In this document: in pieces, positions 1,303 to 36,212 of the stretch
Position numbering within the stretch: the first letter of the stretch is position 1
Layout of the letters: the number at the start of each line of letters is the position of its first letter
Assembly: GCF_000759025.1 (NCBI RefSeq)
Contig: NZ_JPOS01000012.1
Coordinates: 62,001-126,000, forward strand
Length of the DNA stretch: 64,000 nt
Source: Phaeodactylibacter xiamenensis
GTDB taxonomy: Bacteria; Bacteroidota; Bacteroidia; Chitinophagales; Saprospiraceae
Direction: 5' to 3'
The notes under the pieces: generated by a model
What the model saw: only the letters and a program-made list of their open reading frames with translations
What the model was told of the DNA's origin: nothing
Databases searched by the model: none
Program-made: the position numbers and the translations under genes

Positions 1303-2517
1303 ATGTCTCCACAAAATCTGACTTTTGAAAATGCAGAAGGAGTTTCCCTTTCGGCACGGCTGGAGCTGCCGGCCCATCAGCATCCGCATACCTATGCCCT
1401 GTTTGCCCATTGCTTTACCTGCAGCAAGCAATTCACGGCTGTTCGTAATATCGCCCGGGCATTAACCCTTGAAGGCGTTGGAGTGCTTTCCTTTGACTTC
1501 ACAGGGCTGGGAGAAAGCGAGGGAGACTTTGCAGATACCAATTTCTCTTCAAATATTGAGGATTTAGTGCAGGCAGCTGCTTTTTTAGCCGATGAATACG
1601 AGGCCCCTGCCCTACTGATCGGGCATTCTCTCGGGGGCGCAGCTGTACTACGTGCAGCCCATGAAATCCCCTCCGTAAAAGCCGTGGTAACCATTGGTGC
1701 GCCGGATGCCCCCGACCACGTGCAGCACTTATTCAGTGAACAAACAGACGCCATAGAAGCTGATGGCCTGGCTGTAATCAGGATCGCTGATCGCCCGTTT
1801 ACAGTAAAAAAACAGTTTCTGGAAGATATCCGGACGCATAACCTGGAGCCCTACATCAAGCGGTTAGACCGGGCGCTGCTAGTGCTCCATTCTCCTCAGG
1901 ATACGATCGTGGGCATCGAAAATGCCAGAAAGATATACGAGGCAGCTATGCACCCTAAAAGCTATATCTCACTGGATGGTGCTGACCATCTGCTCACGGA
2001 GAAAAAGGACAGCCGGTATGTTGGAAATGTCATCGCTTCCTGGGCAGAACGCTACCTTGACTTTGAAGAACGCCGCGCACTCCGTTCAGATAAAGATGTG
2101 GCAGCCCGGCTGGGGCAGGCGGATGCATTTACTACAGAGATTACCGTACGTAAGCACGGACTGACCGCAGATGAGCCCCCGGAGGTTGGGGGGAATGATT
2201 TTGGCCCCTCACCTTACGAGTTTTTGTCGGCTGGTTTGGGTGCCTGTACGGCAATGACGTTGCGCATGTATGCCAAGCGAAAAAAATGGCCTCTGGAAGA
2301 GGTGATTGTTCACCTGGAGCATAGTAAGAATCATGCCGAAGACTGCCAGAACCCTGACCAACCGGACAGCAAGATCGACCATTTTGAGCTCATCCTGGAA
2401 CTCAACGGCCCGATTTCTGAAGATCAAAAAGCACGGATGCTTGAAATTGCTAAAAAATGCCCCGTTCACCGTACGCTACATGACCCCGTCAAAATAGCCG
2501 CAAAGCTAAAAAAATAG
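1303..2517 (+). CDS. Bifunctional alpha/beta hydrolase - OsmC family fusion protein
   Basis: A 404-residue two-domain protein. Residues 1-255 form an alpha/beta hydrolase: the nucleophile elbow is GHSLGG with Ser109, an acid candidate lies in HSPQD, and the catalytic His is in DGADHLL. Residues 270-404 form an OsmC/Ohr-type domain, whose family reduces organic hydroperoxides using two cysteines; both are present, Cys315 in GLGACTAM and Cys386 in KKCPVHRTL. No signal peptide is seen, so it is cytoplasmic. The fusion is a known architecture in Bacteroidota and Proteobacteria. Known of the family: the OsmC part is a thiol peroxidase. Inferred: the hydrolase may release the acyl or peroxide substrate for it. 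A weak hairpin follows at 2534-2566. Confidence 0.9.
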   Translation: MSPQNLTFENAEGVSLSARLELPAHQHPHTYALFAHCFTCSKQFTAVRNIARALTLEGVGVLSFDFTGLGESEGDFADTNFSSNIEDLVQAAAFLADEYEAPALLIGHSLGGAAVLRAAHEIPSVKAVVTIGAPDAPDHVQHLFSEQTDAIEADGLAVIRIADRPFTVKKQFLEDIRTHNLEPYIKRLDRALLVLHSPQDTIVGIENARKIYEAAMHPKSYISLDGADHLLTEKKDSRYVGNVIASWAERYLDFEERRALRSDKDVAARLGQADAFTTEITVRKHGLTADEPPEVGGNDFGPSPYEFLSAGLGACTAMTLRMYAKRKKWPLEEVIVHLEHSKNHAEDCQNPDQPDSKIDHFELILELNGPISEDQKARMLEIAKKCPVHRTLHDPVKIAAKLKK

Positions 2518-2533
2518 CGATCTACAAAAGTGC

Positions 2534-2566
2534 AGGGCCCCGGTACCAAATGGCTACCGGGGCTCT
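2534..2566. terminator. Candidate bidirectional terminator hairpin
   Basis: A 12-bp stem (2534-2545 with 2555-2566, one G-T mismatch) with a GC-rich core CCCCGGTA/TACCGGGG and a 9-nt loop sits between two convergent genes. There is no T-tract on either side, so it may act with Rho or only as an RNA 3' end stabiliser. Confidence 0.5.
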
Positions 2567-2598
2567 GACATCCAGTTACTGGCTTTTAATGACTGGAA

Positions 2599-5500
2599 TT
2601 ACCGGAGCAGCGTGATATTGCCCTGACGAGTAAAAACCTGATCGGGCTCGCCTTCCTCTCCGGGACAAACTATTCTCATATAGTACCCGTAAACGTCAGG
2701 TGGCAGGTCTTCTCCCCCAAAGAATCCGTCCCAGCACAGATTCTGCATATCATTGCTGCGGAAAACCTCTTGCCCCCAGCGGTTGTAAATCATAAGTTCT
2801 ATTTCGGAGAACTGATCCATCACTTCGCTTTGTACGCATACCTGATCATTGTTCTGATCACCGTTCGGTGTGAAGGCATCTGCGATAAAGACCTTGTCCA
2901 CTTCACAGCGCTCACAGGTCCCTACGTCCACTGTGGTCGTTAGGGTATCCCGGCAGACTTCACCGGTCACAATCACCTGAAAAGTCGATGGGCGCAGTGG
3001 TTCTGCATCGGTTATTGCTGCATCAGGATTGGTCAACCGGTCTTCCGGTGTCCATTCATAGGTACAGTTGTCACATCCAACGACCTCAAGCGTGGCAAAG
3101 TCCCCTGTACAAATTGAGGTGTCACCACCAACAATCGCGAGGTCGAGGGCTTCCACTTCAATTTCTATACTGGCCGTATCCATAGCACAGGCATTTTCCG
3201 CTATAGCAAAATAAGATACCAGCCCTGCACGGGTCGGTGTTACCCCAATCACCTCTCCCTCTCCTATGAATACAAAGGCTTCGTCATACCAGGAAATGGT
3301 AGCAGCCACATCCTCAGGGTCCAGGGCTGCTTCGAGGCTGGCTTCATCGCCCAGACAAATCAGCAGGGAAGGCGTATTGATTTCCAACATCAAATCTTCA
3401 GGTACATATTCCACGACAATCGTATCGCTGCTTACGCAACCCAATTCAACTAGGTTGGCGATGTAAATGCTGGAGCCGGGCTGAGGCATAATTTCTATAG
3501 AAATGGCCGTATCAATCACATTCCCCTCCCCATCGGTCCACACTACAGCTTGCCCAAGCGGTGCCAGGGCATTCAGCTGAATGGCAAAGGAATCGCAGAC
3601 CACCAGGGTGTCCACGGAAGGAATGATTTCAATAGCAGCACTATCGATCGTCACCTGAACCAGTGTGTCAGCAACTACGCCACAACCATTAGTTGCCTCA
3701 AAAATGAATGATGCGGTGCCTGCTTCTGCCCCAACGAGCACAAGACCTTCGTTAATGGCTACCGTATCTCCATTTTCATTCTCCCAAACGAAGGGATAAT
3801 CGTAGTCGCCCACCGTCACACTAAGCGTGTCATTCAGGCACATGAGTACCGTATCAGGCAGGCTCGGTGGCAGTACCGGTGGAATCGTATCCACCATTAC
3901 AGTTACGGTATCTGAAATAGTGCAGTCCAGACCGGGAACACTTGCTATGTATTGGCTGATACCTACAGGTGGGGTCACACAAAGCTCACCGCCCGTACCC
4001 AACAGCGTACCTTCAAGGTCGGTCCATTCTATGCATTCATCCGGCAAACCGGTAACCGTAGCCGTCAGGCAGGTATCCATTTCTACCGGAGTACATAACA
4101 AGACATTTACATCTGGCTGCACATCAACCGTCTGCTCCGGCACCACGTACACAATCACCTCGGCCGAGGTCATGCCGCAAGCATTGGACGCGCCGAACTC
4201 GTAGCAGAACTCGCCGGCCTGGTCGCCCAGGATGATTATCTCGTCATTGGCGACCGGGATCTCCGCGCCGCCGCACGCTGACCACGTGTACGGGAAGCCG
4301 TAGCCGCTCAGGTCGATCACCGCTTCGTCGCCTACGCACAGCTTTAGTGTGTCCGGCAAAGCGACCGGTGGGGGCGGCGGAAGCGTCTCCACCACAATCG
4401 TTACCGTATCGGACGTGATGCAGCCCAGCCCGGGAACGCCTGCGATGTAGTAGCTCGTGCCTTCCGGCGGCGTCACGCATAGCTCGTTGCCCGTGCCCAA
4501 AACGTTGCCGTCAAAGTCCGTCCATTCTATGCAATCGCCCGGCAGGGCCGTTACTGTTGCCGTCAGGCAGGTGTCGGTAGCCACTGGCGCGCATAGCTCG
4601 ATTTCTAAGTCTGGCTGGGCATCAACCGTCTGCTCCGGCACCACGTACACAATCACCTCGGCCGAGGTCATGCCGCAAGCGTTGGACGCGCCGAACTCGT
4701 AGCAGAACTCGCCGGCCTGGTCGCCCAAAATGATTATCTCGTCATTGGCGACCGGGATCTCCGCGCCGCCGCATGCTGACCACGTGTATGGGTAGCCGTA
4801 GCCGCTCAGGTCGATCACCGCTTCGTCGCCTACGCACAGCTTCAGTGTGTCCGGCAAAGCGACCGGTGGGGGCGGCGGGAGCGTCTCCACCACAATCGTT
4901 ACCGTATCACTCGCGCTACCACATGTCAACTGTGGCGTACTCGCAATATATTGGTTTACGCCCTCCACTGGCAGTACAGACAAGGTAGTCCCTGTACCCA
5001 AAATAGCCCCATCTTCACTTGTCCAGGTAATATCGCTATCTGCGAATCCATCCGCAGTGGCAAAGATGTCAATGGCAGTGTTGACCGGTCCGCATAAAGC
5101 AATGGTAGAGTCTGGTTGTGCATCTATTACTGGTTCCGGAACAACGTACACAATCACGTCCACTTCCACCGTATCACAGGCATTAGAAGCGTTAAAACTA
5201 TAACATGCTTCGCCTAAGGCAGTGGCATTAATTTCAATTTCGTTGCTATTTTCCTGAATCAACTGACCATCACAAGCAGACCAGCTGTAAGGGAAACCGT
5301 AGCCGCTCAGATCAAATACGGTATCCTGCCCAATACACAGGGTAAGGGTATCCGGCAGTGCAGGAGGCGTCATCGGCAGATTATCCACGATAACCGTTAT
5401 GGTATCGGGTGTCACGCAAGTAAGGCCCGAAACACTGGCAATGTAATGGTTTAAGCCCACGCCCGGTGTTACACAAAGCTCGCCTCCGGTCCCCAGTATA

Positions 5501-28243: not shown

Positions 28244-29053
28244 TTACCCCTCTTTCAGAACCAGCAGGGGTACAGGCGTATTGAACACCTTCCTGGTCGT
28301 GGCACTTACGTGGAAAACTTCCTCCAGAAAGCCCCGCTGCCGCCGTACCATCACCAGCAGTTGCGCACCGCAGTCTATTACAAAGTTATTGATGCTCTCA
28401 TTGACGTTTTCTTCTTCGAGCTCGTAGTGGAAGGAATGGTCAATGCCGCTAAGCGCCTCATCCACGCTGGGGTCAATGCCATCCTCTTCGAAGGCAGCCG
28501 ATTGGTGAAAAACACAGACCGGTGCATCAAATGCTTTGGAAATCACCGACAGCGGCTTTACCATTTCGCGATCTTCCAGCCCTTCTTCATCGATGGCCAG
28601 CACAATCTTTTCCACCGGAGTATACCTGTAGCCGGCAGGGACCGCAAGTACCGGTACGTCAGCCTGCTTTAGCACGGCATTTGTGGTGCTGCCAAAAAAT
28701 ATCTCCTGCAAACCTGAGGCACCCTGCGTGCCCATCAGTATGAGATCGTAACGGTTGCGGCGGGCAAAGTCGGTGATCAGGTCTACAGTAGGCCCCCGAA
28801 GGATTTGGCTATCAATCGTGACACCGTTTTGCAGCCTGGGCTCTACAGCTTTTATAGCCTCAAGGGACTGGTCTACGGCATCCTTTTTCATGAAGTCGCT
28901 GACCGAGACGAACATGCCTGCGTTGCTATGCACTTCGTAGGTGTGCAGCAAAGTCAGCTCCACATTGCCTATGGCATTGGCCAGCCCAACCCCGTACTGA
29001 AGGGCGCCCATGGCATTGGAAGAGAAATCAGTTGGAATGAGGATTTTTCTCAT
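28244..29053 (-). CDS. Tandem-domain universal stress protein
   Basis: A protein of 269 residues from the ATG at 29051-29053, chosen because MRKILIPTDFS is the canonical Usp start; an upstream ATG at 29086 would add 11 residues without pattern. Domain 1 (1-145) keeps the ATP-binding signature G-2X-G-9X-G-S in MGTQGASGLQEIFFGST. Domain 2 (150-269) has lost it (VRRQRGFLEEVFHVSATT). Family knowledge: one ATP-binding plus one degenerate domain is common in tandem Usps, which help survival in hypoxia, stasis or oxidative stress. It is divergent from the FixL-like kinase; palindromes in the shared intergenic region suggest common regulation. Confidence 0.9.
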   Translation of the reverse strand: MRKILIPTDFSSNAMGALQYGVGLANAIGNVELTLLHTYEVHSNAGMFVSVSDFMKKDAVDQSLEAIKAVEPRLQNGVTIDSQILRGPTVDLITDFARRNRYDLILMGTQGASGLQEIFFGSTTNAVLKQADVPVLAVPAGYRYTPVEKIVLAIDEEGLEDREMVKPLSVISKAFDAPVCVFHQSAAFEEDGIDPSVDEALSGIDHSFHYELEEENVNESINNFVIDCGAQLLVMVRRQRGFLEEVFHVSATTRKVFNTPVPLLVLKEG

Positions 29054-29114
29054 AAGTATTGGCGTTTTGGAAGGATTCAACATCAATTTAACAGGGTCTC
29101 ATCAAATCAGGACA

Positions 29115-29149
29115 TGACATCAATCACGTCAGAGGGGTGACATTTGTCA
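29115..29149. promoter_or_regulatory. Two TGAC/GTCA-type inverted repeats between usp and the sensor kinase
   Basis: TGAC at 29115-29118 pairs with GTCA at 29128-29131 (9-bp spacer), and TGACATTTGTCA at 29138-29149 has 5-bp arms around a TT centre. Both are between divergent promoters, 60-100 bp from either start. The symmetric half-sites fit a dimeric Crp/Fnr-type regulator, a candidate being the receiver-Crp protein encoded next door. Confidence 0.4.
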
Positions 29150-29177
29150 TCCTTTACCACCGGGCTTACCTGTTAAC

Positions 29178-30908
29178 TTGCCTGCTGATTTTGCCCTGAC
29201 TAAGCCATTATCGCAAATACCAATTTCACGTACAAGCATTTTGAGCCAATTATTCAAATCTTTAGTGCCCGAAGAAGCAGCCCTTCAGTTGGAGGCCATT
29301 ATTCAGTCTGCAACAGATGGCATCATTTCTATTGATACCAGGGGGCGTATGGTTTTAGTCAATCAGGCCGCTGCTCAACTTTTTGGATATTCAAAAGTGG
29401 AAATGCTCGGGCAAAGCATCAATATGCTCATGCCCGCGTACCATGCCCAACAGCACGACAACTACATTGCGCGCTACATGAAAACCGGGGAGGCCCAAAT
29501 CATTGGGATCGGCCGTGAAGTAATGGCACAACGCAAAGACGGTTCCCAATTTCCGATCAGGCTAAGCATTAGCGAAGTGGAAATGGGGGAACGCCGCTTA
29601 TTCACCGGCATCGTCCACGACCTCACCCAGCAAAAGACGGCAGAATCGGCACTCCAAAGGGAAAAAGAGCGTGCCCAACGGTACCTGAATATCGCTAATA
29701 CGATCATTGTTATTCTGGACCGCGATGGCAAAATAAAACTGCTCAACGAAAAGGGCCGGAGAATCCTCGAGGTGGAACCCGGCGAAGCTATCGGCAAAGA
29801 ATGGGTGGACCATTTCATACCCGACAGCTACCGGAGTGAGGTCAAAGTGGTCTTCCGGGCCCTCATGGATGGCAGGGACATTGAGTACTATGAGAATTAT
29901 GTGCAGTCTGCTTCCGGAAAACAACACCTGGTGGCCTGGCACAACACTCTACTAAGAGATGACAACGGAGAGATCACCGGCACTCTAAGCTCCGGTATTG
30001 ATATCAGCGCGCAACGGGAAGCAGAAGACCGGATCATCCGGCTCAATCAGGAGCTTGAGAAGCGGGTCGCTGCCCGTACGGAAGAGCTTGCCGAAGTGGT
30101 CAATCAGCTGCTTGGCATCAACAAACAGCTAAAGCATGAGATCAAAGAGCGGGAAACCGCCGAGGCTGCACTGAAAACCAAAGAGAAACAGCTGACCACC
30201 GCCCTGGAAAAGGAAAAGGAGCTCAACGAGCTCAAATCCCGGTTTGTCTCCATGGCTTCTCATGAGTTCCGGACTCCGCTGAGTACGATCCTGTCCTCTG
30301 CTGACCTTATCGAAGCTTACCAAAAAGAAGAACAGCAAAAGAAACGGCTTCGGCATACCCAAAGGATCAAGACCTCGGTAGCCAACCTGACCAGTATTCT
30401 CAACGATTTTCTGTCGCTGAGCCGGCTCGAAGAGGGCAAGCTAAGCTTCAACCCTTCCGAATTTGAACTTACAGCAGTCTGGAAGGAAGTGGAAGAGGGC
30501 GTACAGGGCATGCTTAAGAAAGGGCAACAGCTAAATATCAAAGGTCTTGATCAAATTCCCGACCTGAATACAGACCGGAGAATACTCCAGAACATTTTCT
30601 ACAACCTGCTTTCCAATGCCATCAAGTACAGCGGTGAGGGGCAGCCCATAGATTGCAGGGTACATTGTAAAAACGGAGATTTGAAAATCGCCATACAGGA
30701 CTATGGCATAGGCATTCCTGAATCCGAGCAACAGCATTTATTTACTCGCTTTTTTAGGGCTCACAATGTAGAAAACATACAGGGCACGGGGCTCGGGCTC
30801 AATATCGTCAAAGGCTATGTGGATCTCCTGGGCGGGCATATCACTTTTGAAAGCGTACCCGAACAAGGCTCAACATTCAGGGTAACGATCCCCTTAGAGC
30901 ACCACTAA
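29178..30908 (+). CDS. FixL-like haem-PAS sensor histidine kinase
   Basis: A 576-residue soluble kinase; no membrane segment. PAS1 (38-155) closely follows rhizobial FixL: HDNYIARYMKTGEAQIIGIGR aligned by eye places His93 at the haem-ligand position (His200 in Bradyrhizobium FixL), Arg99 at Arg206, Gln107 at His214 and Arg113 at the O2-contacting Arg220. PAS2 covers 165-280, then a coiled coil 280-355. The kinase core has SHEFRTPLS with phospho-acceptor His362, the N box NLLSNAIKYS, DYGIGIP and GTGLGLNIVKG. Oxygen binding to haem should inhibit the kinase, as in FixL. The start is uncertain: 29178 and an alternative at 29241 are both TTG. The response regulator follows after 100 bp. Confidence 0.9.
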   Translation: MPADFALTKPLSQIPISRTSILSQLFKSLVPEEAALQLEAIIQSATDGIISIDTRGRMVLVNQAAAQLFGYSKVEMLGQSINMLMPAYHAQQHDNYIARYMKTGEAQIIGIGREVMAQRKDGSQFPIRLSISEVEMGERRLFTGIVHDLTQQKTAESALQREKERAQRYLNIANTIIVILDRDGKIKLLNEKGRRILEVEPGEAIGKEWVDHFIPDSYRSEVKVVFRALMDGRDIEYYENYVQSASGKQHLVAWHNTLLRDDNGEITGTLSSGIDISAQREAEDRIIRLNQELEKRVAARTEELAEVVNQLLGINKQLKHEIKERETAEAALKTKEKQLTTALEKEKELNELKSRFVSMASHEFRTPLSTILSSADLIEAYQKEEQQKKRLRHTQRIKTSVANLTSILNDFLSLSRLEEGKLSFNPSEFELTAVWKEVEEGVQGMLKKGQQLNIKGLDQIPDLNTDRRILQNIFYNLLSNAIKYSGEGQPIDCRVHCKNGDLKIAIQDYGIGIPESEQQHLFTRFFRAHNVENIQGTGLGLNIVKGYVDLLGGHITFESVPEQGSTFRVTIPLEHH

Positions 30909-30976
30909 AAAACACTCAGCTAGCTGTATGCCATGATTACTGGTACCCGCTCCATTTAAAGAACGGGTATTCTAAC

Positions 30977-30984
30977 TATATTTG
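30977..30984 (+). promoter_or_regulatory. Candidate Bacteroidota -7 promoter box before the receiver-Crp gene
   Basis: TATATTTG matches the TAnnTTTG -7 consensus and lies 27 bp before the ATG at 31012, leaving a short leader. No clear TTG -33 box is present. A short inverted repeat TACCCG/CGGGTA (30944-30949, 30964-30969) precedes it. The regulator may therefore be transcribed on its own as well as with the kinase. Confidence 0.45.
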
Positions 30985-31011
30985 AGGACTGTAACCAGAT
31001 AAAAAACAGCG

Positions 31012-32055
31012 ATGAAAAAGATCCTAGTCATTGAAGATAATGAGGAAGTACGTGAAAACCTGGAAGAAATCCTCGAGCTTTCCGGCTATCAGGTGACAAC
31101 CGCCGAAGATGGCAAAGTAGGGGTGGAAAAAGCCCTGACCAATCCGCCTGACCTCATCCTGTGCGATGTGATGATGCCCCACCTCGATGGGTTTGGCGTG
31201 CTCAATATCCTTAGCAAGAAGAGCGCGACTTCCAATGTGCCCTTTATTTTCCTCACGGCAAAAACAGAGAAAGCAGATTTCCGCCGGGGCATGAATCTTG
31301 GAGCAGACGACTACGTCACTAAGCCTTTTTACAAGGACGAGCTGCTTGATGTCATCGAAACCCGCCTGGAAAAAAGCGAACGGCTCAAAAAGCAGTTTGA
31401 CAAAACCGAGCAGGGCCTCACGGCTTTCATCAATGAGGCGAAAGGGTACGAAGAACTCCGCAAACTGTCGGATGAGCGGAAAATCAAACACTACAAGCGG
31501 CGAGACCTCATTTTTGAGGAGGGCGACTATCCACGCTATCTCTACTTTGTCAAATCAGGGAAAGCCAAAGTCTTTAAGACCAACGAGGACGGGAAGGAAT
31601 ACATCATTGAAATCTGCAAGGAAGGGGACTTCTTCGGCTACCTGGACCTGCTGAAAGAAGAAAAATACACAGAGTCAGCAGCTGCCATGGAGGAGACAGA
31701 GATCAGCCTGATCCCCAAGGAGGATTTCTCAAAGCTGTTGAATGCCAACCGGGATGTAGCTTCCCAGATGATTAAAATGCTGGCCAGCAACGTCACTGCC
31801 AAGGAGGAACAACTGCTCAACCTGGCGTACAATTCCGTGCGGCGGCGAGTAGCGGATGCCATCCTGCTCCTTCATGAAAAACAGGGCGAAGGCAACATCA
31901 GTATTCTGCGGGACGACCTGGCGCGGATCGTAGGAACCGCCAAGGAGAGTGTTATCCGTATGCTCACAGAGTTCAAGGAAGATGGCTACATAGAAGTGAT
32001 TGACGGTGCGATCAAGATCGTTGATCCGGAGGGGCTTCGCAATATGCATGCTTAA
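31012..32055 (+). CDS. Response regulator with receiver domain fused to a Crp/Fnr-type DNA-binding module
   Basis: A 347-residue regulator. Residues 1-122 form a receiver: acidic pocket EDN (8-10), phospho-acceptor Asp52 in LCDVMMP, Thr82 and Lys104 in TKPF. Residues 150-260 form a cyclic-nucleotide-binding-type barrel (RDLIFEEGDYPRYLYFVKSG in part, EGDFFGYLDLL). Residues 265-330 are a winged helix-turn-helix of the Crp type (SILRDDLARIVGTAKESVIR in part). It lacks the N-terminal cysteine cluster of Fnr, so it should not be a [4Fe-4S] sensor; phosphorylation by the neighbouring haem-PAS kinase is the likely input. In rhizobia these roles are split between FixJ and FixK. A strong terminator follows. 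Confidence 0.92.
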   Translation: MKKILVIEDNEEVRENLEEILELSGYQVTTAEDGKVGVEKALTNPPDLILCDVMMPHLDGFGVLNILSKKSATSNVPFIFLTAKTEKADFRRGMNLGADDYVTKPFYKDELLDVIETRLEKSERLKKQFDKTEQGLTAFINEAKGYEELRKLSDERKIKHYKRRDLIFEEGDYPRYLYFVKSGKAKVFKTNEDGKEYIIEICKEGDFFGYLDLLKEEKYTESAAAMEETEISLIPKEDFSKLLNANRDVASQMIKMLASNVTAKEEQLLNLAYNSVRRRVADAILLLHEKQGEGNISILRDDLARIVGTAKESVIRMLTEFKEDGYIEVIDGAIKIVDPEGLRNMHA

Positions 32056-35066: not shown

Positions 35067-36212
35067 TTACCAAAATAAATCGGCAGCAATGCCGTCTGCC
35101 ATAAAACGGTGGGTACCGGGCAGCCAGTATTTGCCATGCGCAGAAACCACCTGCCCCGCCGCCTCAAAACGGGCAACTTCCCGCTCAAAGTGTGCCGCAT
35201 ATTCCACTCCAAACCGGCTCCGGATAGTGTGCAGGCTAACCCCCCAGATGGTCCGAAGACCGGTCATCACATATTCATTGTACTGATCGGCGGTGCTGAG
35301 GCCCTCTTTTTCAAACAGCCCTAAGCCGATAGCCTGGCCCAGATCAGAGGTTGCCATCGCTTTGAGGTACTTCGCGTTATTGGCCACGTTCCACTGCCGG
35401 CTATGCCCGTTGAAGCTGTGGGCAGAGGGGCCAATGCCGAGGTAGGGCTCCCCTTTCCAGTAGCTGCTGTTGTGCAGGGCGTAGCGCCCGGGCAGGGCAA
35501 AGTTGGACACCTCGTACTGCTCATACCCTGCGGCGCTTGTCATTTCTACCAGCATCTCAAAGTGGCGGGCAGCGGCGGCTTCCTCCACCGGGGGGACTTT
35601 GCCTTTTCTGACAAAATAGTCGAGGGCGGTCTGCGGCTCTACCGTCAGAGCATAGGCGGAAAAGTGGGGTACTTCGGCCTCCAGGACAGCCTTCAGATTG
35701 GCTGCCCAATGCGCATCAGGCATGGTGGGCGCGCCGTAGATGAGGTCGACGGTAAGGTCGCGGAAACCAGCGGCGCGGGCGCGTTCCACACACTGACGGG
35801 CTTCAGCCGCATTATGTGCCCGGTTGAAAAAGGTGAGGTCTTCTTCGTAAAAAGACTGAATGCCAATGCTCAGCCGGTTGACCGGCGATGCGCGGAGGGC
35901 TTGCAGCTTTTCCGGTGTGAGGTCATCGGGGTTGGCCTCAAGGGTGATTTCGGCATCCGGCGCAAGTTCGAAGTGCCGGGCAACGGCGTCGAAAAACGCA
36001 GCCAGTTCCTCCGCTTCCAGCAGGCTGGGTGTCCCCCCGCCAAAGTAAAGGCTTTGCAAAGGCTCCTGTGGCAGGTAGCCCGCGCGCCAGTGCAGCTCCT
36101 TCAGCATGGCTTCCACTACCTGCGACTTGTACTTTAGCGAGGTGGAGAAGTGGAAATTGCAGTAGTGGCAGGCTTGCTTGCAAAATGGAATATGAAAATA
36201 AATACCTGGCAT
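35067..36212 (-). CDS. hemW: Radical SAM family haem chaperone HemW
   Basis: A 381-residue radical SAM protein. FHIPFCKQACHYCNFH contains the CxxxCxxC [4Fe-4S] cluster motif plus the extra Cys/His typical of HemN-like proteins, and LYFGGGTPSLL is the SAM-binding GGTP motif. Length near 380 with no N-terminal HemN extension points to HemW, which inserts haem into respiratory enzymes, rather than to HemN, which oxidises coproporphyrinogen III. The C-terminal HemN_C region (NEYVMTGLRTIWGVSL) is complete. It lies 10 bp after the hydrolase gene. Confidence 0.92.
   Translation of the reverse strand: MPGIYFHIPFCKQACHYCNFHFSTSLKYKSQVVEAMLKELHWRAGYLPQEPLQSLYFGGGTPSLLEAEELAAFFDAVARHFELAPDAEITLEANPDDLTPEKLQALRASPVNRLSIGIQSFYEEDLTFFNRAHNAAEARQCVERARAAGFRDLTVDLIYGAPTMPDAHWAANLKAVLEAEVPHFSAYALTVEPQTALDYFVRKGKVPPVEEAAAARHFEMLVEMTSAAGYEQYEVSNFALPGRYALHNSSYWKGEPYLGIGPSAHSFNGHSRQWNVANNAKYLKAMATSDLGQAIGLGLFEKEGLSTADQYNEYVMTGLRTIWGVSLHTIRSRFGVEYAAHFEREVARFEAAGQVVSAHGKYWLPGTHRFMADGIAADLFW

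Follow-up and report, generated by a model that had tools for sequence, protein, structure and literature searches.

Architecture of the locus

The analysis concerns a stretch of 64,000 nucleotides of Phaeodactylibacter xiamenensis DNA (assembly GCF_000759025.1, contig NZ_JPOS01000012.1, positions 62,001 to 126,000; hereafter the window) and, within it, positions 28244-32055, where a universal stress protein (USP) gene lies divergently from a sensor histidine kinase gene that is followed by the gene of a response regulator joining a receiver to a Crp-type module (receiver-Crp). The locus had been proposed, from its letters alone, to form an oxygen-sensing unit, and we likewise consider it probable that it encodes an oxygen-responsive two-component system, in which a FixL-type haem kinase would govern a receiver-Crp activator of low-oxygen genes. 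All three open reading frames (ORFs) were confirmed, the divergent tandem USP of the original prediction being a minus-strand frame with two Pfam Usp stretches and the kinase giving Pfam matches to PAS (in two stretches), HisKA, and HATPase. The residues singled out earlier in the kinase (His93, Arg99, Gln107, and Arg113) and in the regulator (Asp52, Thr82, and Lys104) were all verified. The source assembly, referred to as G000, comprises 7.87 Mb (completeness 99.91, contamination 1.74). The features are listed below in window coordinates.

28244..29086, minus strand: usp, tandem universal stress protein (Pfam Usp, two stretches)
29084..29091, minus strand: -7-like box TTAAATTG of the putative usp promoter, an imperfect TAnnTTTG; the centre of the palindrome nearer to usp is 29 nt away
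29115..29126, no strand: candidate operator half 1 TGACATCAATCA, inner half for usp (palindrome search)
29138..29149, no strand: candidate operator half 2 TGACATTTGTCA, inner half for the kinase, 23 bp from half 1
29173..29180, plus strand: -7-like box TTAACTTG of the putative kinase promoter, imperfect, including the listed TTG start
29178..30908, plus strand: sensor histidine kinase PAS1-PAS2-HisKA-HATPase, 576 aa from TTG (ORF, Pfam)
29286..29657, plus strand: PAS1, FixL-type haem PAS, aa 37-160 (alignment, predicted model, Foldseek)
29454..29456, plus strand: codon of His93, predicted proximal haem ligand
29514..29516, plus strand: codon of Arg113, counterpart of FixL Arg220
30261..30263, plus strand: codon of His362, predicted phospho-acceptor in SHEFRTP (HisKA 353-420, motif position)
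31012..32055, plus strand: receiver-Crp response regulator, 347 aa (Pfam Response_reg, cNMP_binding, and HTH_Crp)
31165..31167, plus strand: codon of Asp52, predicted phosphorylation site of the regulator
31846..32043, plus strand: HTH_Crp domain with recognition helix GTAKESVIRML (Pfam)

The kinase carries a FixL-type PAS domain

The first PAS domain of the kinase (PAS1) aligns without gaps to the Bradyrhizobium FixL (BjFixL) chain, with 54 of 124 residues identical (44%). This alignment bears out the claimed FixL spacing of His93, Arg99, and Arg113 with Gln107 in the place of His214, and in a numbering that we take to be anchored on His200, the equivalents are His200 to His93, Arg206 to Arg99, His214 to Gln107, Arg220 to Arg113, Leu236 to residue 129, and Ile238 to residue 131. 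The haem-PAS residues His200, Arg206, and Arg220 are thus all kept, His214 being the sole exception among those examined. FixL chains were also the best PDB sequence matches of PAS1, with Escherichia coli DosP far behind. This resemblance is further strengthened by a predicted model built on 35 relatives (pLDDT 88.7), for which the 20 best Foldseek matches in the PDB are all FixL (top TM 0.93, root mean square deviation 1.1) and in which His93 falls within a long helix (residues 87-103); the original prediction had named a position of His93 outside the F-alpha helix among the results that would count against it, and the check on the predicted model alone gave this long helix as its place.

Across the 35 aligned PAS1 relatives, whose choice by the FixL-type motif in part imposes the constancy of the residues used to choose them, His93, Tyr100, Gly110, Arg113, and Gly144 are invariant, Leu occupies position 129 in 34, and every sequence has either Val or Ile at position 131. 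The place of His214 (residue 107) holds K in 21, R in 10, Q in 3, and H in 1. Arg99 is variable (R in 17, N in 14, others in 4), and its counterpart Arg206 presumably corresponds to R200 of Sinorhizobium meliloti FixL. Variants at R200 keep oxy, deoxy, and CO spectra though autoxidizing (PMC10765370, in part), and a change at Arg99 therefore need not abolish haem. Further along the kinase, His362 is invariant in 25 of 25 chosen kinases.

An FNR-like regulator with an N-terminal receiver

Both the Pfam matches and the cysteine count (Cys51 and Cys202 only) agree with the description of the regulator as a full receiver fused to a Crp/Fnr-type module without Fnr cysteines, the N-terminal FNR cysteine cluster being absent from its sequence. 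Among 30 aligned regulator relatives, Asp52 and Lys104 are invariant and Thr82 nearly so, while Gly308, Glu312, Arg316, and Leu318 of the recognition helix are invariant in 30 of 30 and their counterparts in 13 of 13 FNR proteins. In a tree of the Crp part, all 30 receiver-Crp rows fall in one group (support 97/91), and these rows, the FNR rows, and two further Crp rows split from four other G000 Crp proteins at 98/94; the root of this tree was not inferred, the bootstrap had not settled, several branches are long, and FNR alone is weakly grouped (36/1). An AlphaFold2 model of the entire regulator reached a pLDDT of 83.9 and a pTM of 0.49, the latter too low to define the domain arrangement.

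The original prediction also held that the locus merges FixJ and FixK. The merging of functions in one protein stands, and the regulator shares with FixK a Crp/FNR fold without Fe-S cysteines, while its complete receiver departs from FixK. A literal FixJ-FixK fusion was rejected, since Pfam finds no LuxR/GerE-type DNA-binding domain of the FixJ kind, with HTH_Crp in its place, and since the Crp part is nearest to FNR in the tree. On these comparisons, the protein is better described as FNR-like with an N-terminal receiver.

A cNMP_binding match in the regulator raises the question of whether a cyclic nucleotide controls its Crp part, with phosphorylation being secondary, and a gene for a Guanylate_cyc-domain protein does adjoin one of the paired sites described below, as does its 65% identical match in a relative (G025). 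The residues of CAP that presumably contact the nucleotide, in the numbering we assume, point the other way: the place of CAP Glu72 is Tyr in 20 of the 30 receiver-Crp relatives and Glu in none, and across the stretch of CAP Arg82-Ser83 no position has Arg in more than two of the 30 among the letters listed. Control by cyclic AMP was rejected on the loss of these contacts, and cyclic nucleotide control in general appears very unlikely next to the phosphorylation-driven regulator favored here.

A paired palindrome at a fixed distance from the promoter

The candidate operator was discovered without using gene names. Upstream of USP genes near receiver-Crp genes, TGA-N6-TCA occurs in 49 of 93 stretches (at most 390 bp each) against 8.6 expected from shuffles. 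In 1.64 Mb of receiver-Crp loci, a set that holds near copies and overlaps, palindromes are spaced at 22 bp in 97 pairs and at 23 bp in 20 (shuffles, 0.2 and 0), with at most 4 pairs at each other spacing up to 60 bp; repeat removal and the inclusion of further G000 sites left 131 distinct pairs. The likely operators are pairs of TGA-N6-TCA palindromes 22-23 bp apart, taken as candidate sites.

The Bacteroidota -7 box is TAnnTTTG (PMC7366714, in part). Around the 131 pairs, this box starts 29 nt downstream of the inner palindrome centre in 40 of 61 matches, with 3 at offset 30 and the others scattered singly, while 16 matches to an opposite-strand -7 box in the same stretches show no offset peak. 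At other loci, TAnnTT[TG] lies at offset 29 in 19 and at offset 30 in 4 of 45 matches. An exact box is absent from most pairs. Where a box can be recognized, its fixed distance would put the inner palindrome about 40-42 bp, and the outer one about 63 bp, ahead of the transcription start. Assuming 4-5 nt between the -7 box and this start, the inner centre would fall at about -41.5 to -42.5, the geometry of class II activators.

At the window locus, usp and the kinase gene each have one of the halves as their inner palindrome, with an imperfect box correctly placed on both sides. Since the listed TTG starts of the kinase (29178) and usp (29086) both sit within these operator-implied boxes, the true starts are probably further in, at about 29241 for the kinase and at Met12 (ATG at 29053) for the USP.

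Genes adjoining the candidate operator

G000 holds 19 exact pairs, compared with 1 for the control pattern, and just one of these lies inside an ORF of at least 70 aa (an 81-aa ORF), a few others overlapping ORF ends. Beyond the window usp and kinase, the genes adjoining the pairs include several of low-oxygen respiration: a ccoNO fusion (cbb3 oxidase) 243 bp from a site that is flanked on its opposite side by a 330-aa family-less protein; cytochrome b558 with the flavoprotein of fumarate reductase/succinate dehydrogenase; HemN (TIGR00538 above cut-off); Rrf2 with NosZ; and NiFe hydrogenase. They further include PEPCK with a usp gene, a usp gene with a Gly_transporter protein, additional usp genes, ZIP, a CBS protein with a nucleotide cyclase, a HipA-like kinase, a second FixL-like kinase with a lone receiver, YceI with an S9 peptidase, MBL-rhodanese proteins, and some unnamed ORFs. 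Judged by the TTGA-N6-TCAA-type box of FixK, TGA-N6-TCA pairs thus adjoin ccoNO, hemN, and nosZ. A single palindrome with a -7 box at the fixed distance was found 12 times (control, 0); 3 of these belong to pairs, and the remaining nine precede HemA, a CcmE-domain protein, PdxH, a QueD-type protein, an MBL-rhodanese protein, and two unnamed ORFs, with two having no ORF within 350 bp.

Eight relatives together hold 170 pairs against 3 for the control. Forty stretches fetched from four of them (26 from G025, 8 from G028, 5 from G035, and 1 from G006) contain 50 sites, 3 of which are inside an ORF of at least 130 aa. Close matches of the G000 hemN, hydrogenase subunit, CBS protein, cyclase, second FixL-like kinase, MBL-rhodanese, and usp genes are again adjacent to sites in these relatives. 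The same holds for ccoNO in three further genomes (G025, G035, and G006), and it was not met among the 8 stretches fetched from G028.

In two genera (L219:4360-6000 and L270:3725-5371), one paired operator is common to the genes of a two-CBS protein and of a protein of about 546 aa with a nucleotide-cyclase domain. The second FixL-like kinase (655 aa, with a FixL-type PAS; L223, contig C75 of G000, 140000-149000, at 2352-5205) is divergent from an 87-aa ORF and the lone receiver (118 aa), with the paired operator in between, and a kinase 57% identical to it adjoins a site in G025 (L272). The lone receiver is 47% identical to the receiver of the window regulator. A FixT-like role for it was rejected, as its sequence has a single Cys and FixT carries a 4-Cys motif (PMC7078487, in part).

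Site numbers, the receiver-Crp gene, and FNR relatives

Searching 59 genomes nearby, own genome included, gave 43 full-length receiver-Crp matches (E <1e-70) in 38 of them. In a broader search of 395 Bacteroidota genomes, with the best five candidates per genome scored, the gene was found in 56, all of them among the 98 of its own class, and three more matches were receiver-only. Within the class, exact 22-bp pairs average 4.07 in the 56 genomes with the gene versus 0.67 in the 42 without, and at least three pairs occur in 30 of 56 versus 4 of 42 (Mann-Whitney p 4e-8 for the comparison, which ignores kinship among genomes). Outside the class, 297 genomes average 0.49 pairs, with 11 having three or more.

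Ten genomes that have at least three pairs and gave no receiver-Crp gene in the broader search were tested for receiver-less relatives; they comprise the four such genomes of the class and six of the eleven from elsewhere. In six (G074, G206, G438, G328, G326, and G361; 3-9 pairs), a homologue without receiver bears FNR-type cysteines and is 36-41% identical, and G192 (3 pairs) has one that is 33% identical, also with these cysteines, while G087, G358, and G373 (3 pairs each) gave no FNR-type receiver-less match at 1e-25. All 13 of 13 FNR proteins have a C-x2-C close to the N-terminus and two further Cys downstream, and these cysteines would hold an Fe-S cluster. The paired site is also present in 6 of 14 fetched fnr loci, directly past the fnr stop codon in 4. 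Because receiver-less FNR genomes and fnr loci hold pairs as well, the site appears to belong to the FNR-like group rather than to receiver-Crp alone.

This raises the alternative that another Crp-family protein of G000 binds the paired sites, with receiver-Crp doing something else. G000 has six further HTH_Crp matches, one of which is below cut-off and two of which lie on contig C3 in frames of 507 and 683 aa; a 217-aa protein on contig C92 has an E/R recognition helix (SREAISR) and is about 14 kb from one paired site; and in genomes without receiver-Crp the sites are accompanied by FNR with Fe-S-type cysteines. No such FNR was found among the G000 HTH_Crp matches examined, which are those outside C3. 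The FNR profile, among the matches listed, scores receiver-Crp at 6e-61 and three others at 1e-26 or weaker, making receiver-Crp the sole member of the FNR-like group found at comparable strength. The four other G000 Crp proteins tested split off in the tree, as described above, site numbers track the receiver-Crp gene within the class, and one pair lies in its own locus. We therefore regard a different binder as decidedly unlikely and take receiver-Crp as the probable binder of the sites.

Kinase partners and the nature of the signal

In the search for kinase and receiver-Crp neighbors suggested earlier, 110 of 119 receiver-Crp genes have a kinase no more than 300 bp away, 37 being FixL-type and 73 other, with no called kinase at 9. 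Left out of the 119 were L039 (a near copy of the window), L045, L047, and L164 (receiver-Crp gene not chosen), and L081 (receiver-less). The 29 loci of the organism's own family comprise 21 with FixL-type kinases, 3 without a called kinase, and 5 labeled other, two of these being cut or split (the L040 kinase is cut by a contig end, and that of L048, which includes a FixL-type PAS piece, is split over two ORFs). In the overall count, L091 is taken as FixL-type by its aligned residues, regular-expression labeling having left it unassigned. A USP gene is present within 3 kb at 25 of 37 FixL-type loci versus 20 of 73 other-kinase loci. On the regulator tree, the FixL-type label requires 8 changes versus a minimum of 26 in 200 label shuffles, which shows joint inheritance and is not evidence of function, because relatedness makes such clustering expected.

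Among other Bacteroidia, receiver-Crp frequently adjoins a kinase (L098, L099, L110, L112, L113, L130, and others) that has a PAS with HxxHRxxYxxxPxxRxM or a similar motif replacing that of FixL, and His is kept at the His93 place. A strict rule, with FixL-type kinases wherever FNR is missing and nowhere else, did not hold in the FNR-profile search: among the matches listed, G020, G023, G054, G043, and G057 have other kinases, yet no FNR-strength receiver-less match, and an FNR-size receiver-less match is present in G007, G017, and G027 (FixL-type kinases) as well as in G029 (other kinase). The G027 protein, the sole one of the four that was read, has zero cysteines.

Such a diversity of partners bears on a third alternative, in which the regulator and regulon are the same and PAS1 senses nitric oxide, carbon monoxide, or redox, or holds no haem. 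Haem PAS domains can bind gases other than O2, most receiver-Crp genes (73 of 119) adjoin kinases without a FixL-type PAS, and nosZ is among the marked genes. The retention of the examined FixL residues except His214, the FixL identity of the nearest structures, and the presence of the cbb3 oxidase and hemN among the marked genes argue for oxygen instead, and we consider another signal unlikely.

A model of oxygen control and the points against it

In the oxygen-responsive system proposed here, the haem of PAS1, with His93 proximal and Arg113 on the ligand side, would bind O2 and thereby inactivate the kinase. When O2 is low, the kinase would phosphorylate itself at His362 and hand the phosphate to Asp52 of the regulator. 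The Crp part of the regulator would then bind DNA as dimers and activate transcription. The predicted targets with pairs include the cbb3 oxidase, hemN, nosZ, NiFe hydrogenase, fumarate reductase/succinate dehydrogenase, PEPCK, and stress proteins, while hemA and ccmE are marked by one palindrome and the box; the kinase's own gene and usp may also be targets, providing feedback. A single protein would cover the work of both FixJ and FixK and would occupy the place that FNR holds in other Bacteroidota. Haem, oxygen as the signal, the direction of kinase control, phosphotransfer, binding by the regulator, and activation are what we infer from the sequences and predicted structures. The microaerobic regulon of the original prediction gains from the operators near ccoNO, hemN, nosZ, NiFe hydrogenase, frd/sdh, PEPCK, and usp genes, and the microaerobic reading is well supported in silico because these operators adjoin genes of low-oxygen respiration and because the nearest structures of PAS1 are FixL.

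Several observations weigh against this model. For the sensor, His at place 93 is also found in most other PAS domains next to receiver-Crp genes, so that the haem case rests on the whole domain and not on His93 alone, and the NCBIfam FixL model NF041777 scores the kinase at 162.7 bits versus a cut-off of 850, for which reason the label of FixL equivalog was rejected in favor of FixL-like. The second FixL-like kinase might signal to this regulator as well. For the sites, their link to the regulator rests on co-occurrence and family resemblance, uncorrected for kinship; 12 of 56 genomes with receiver-Crp show zero exact 22-bp pairs, and some genomes counted as without the gene may be misses. 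FNR proteins go with the same paired site, which is therefore not proof of receiver-Crp, and receiver-Crp genes with non-FixL kinases also have sites, which are therefore no proof of an oxygen signal. Some sites adjoin genes without an obvious low-oxygen role (methionyl-tRNA synthetase, AsnA, and a glycosyl hydrolase). Finally, an exact TAnnTTTG at 29-30 occurs at only 4 of 19 G000 pairs; other pairs have imperfect boxes, as do both sides of the window pair.

Relation to known systems

The system resembles FixL-FixJ-FixK and FNR in its proposed working and appears to be a member of neither, since the LuxR-type domain of FixJ and the cysteines of FNR were tested for and are absent. Bradyrhizobium FixL-FixJ-FixK2 likewise begins with a haem-PAS kinase; there FixJ, with its LuxR-type domain, is a protein of its own and FixK2 is not known to carry a receiver, whereas here the receiver and the Crp module are in one protein. 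The FixK2 box, TTGA/C-N6-T/GCAA, has putative occurrences at Bradyrhizobium ccoN/fixN, hemN1, hemN2, and the nos operon (PMC6710368, in part). It has the TGA-N6-TCA core in common with the operator described here, in which the site is doubled. FNR proteins of Bacteroidota with Fe-S-type cysteines are the nearest relatives found for the Crp part and share the constant G, E, R, and L of the recognition helix; the receiver occupies the end that bears the cysteines in FNR, and those cysteines are absent. FxkR of Rhizobium leguminosarum is not known to be Crp-type, and the mycobacterial haem kinases DosS/DosT, which control stress proteins at low oxygen through DosR, use GAF haem and a LuxR-type regulator. 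The R. leguminosarum hFixL-FxkR-FixK pathway leads from a FixL-type sensor to the FixK activator of fixNOQP (PMC7888657, in part), with two regulators in series, in contrast to the single one here.

Response-regulator surveys mention Crp-type outputs. In the literature searched, which covers few subscription papers, we found no description in Bacteroidota of a receiver-Crp regulator partnered by a FixL-type kinase, or of Crp sites paired at 22 bp. One study places the Crp/FNR protein from a Saprospiraceae assembly near MalR (PMC8510549), and the accessible part of that paper describes neither the pairing nor the paired site. What is new here is a candidate paired operator at a fixed distance from the -7 box near genes of low-oxygen respiration.

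These comparisons lead us to lean, by a modest degree, toward a broader reading in which Bacteroidia possess a second FNR design: a receiver would replace the Fe-S end, an exchangeable kinase would do the sensing, and the operator, promoter geometry, and targets would be FNR-like, with dimers paired in 22-bp phase at about -41/-63. The sensor would then be a FixL-type haem PAS at most of the own-family loci seen and other PAS types elsewhere. Such a design would predict how Bacteroidota without an Fe-S-type FNR switch to the cbb3 oxidase, hydrogenase, and N2O reduction, naming the regulator, the site, and a fixed promoter geometry, and would present a natural case of sensor exchange on one regulator kind.

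Neighboring genes

Elsewhere in the window, the minus-strand ORF at 35067-36212 has, by eye, a HemW/HemN-like radical SAM look with a cysteine triad near its start, and the genome-wide pair search placed no exact paired operator next to it. Just outside the window, at 126754-129456 of contig C12 of G000, lies a 1450-aa open frame with several PAS matches.

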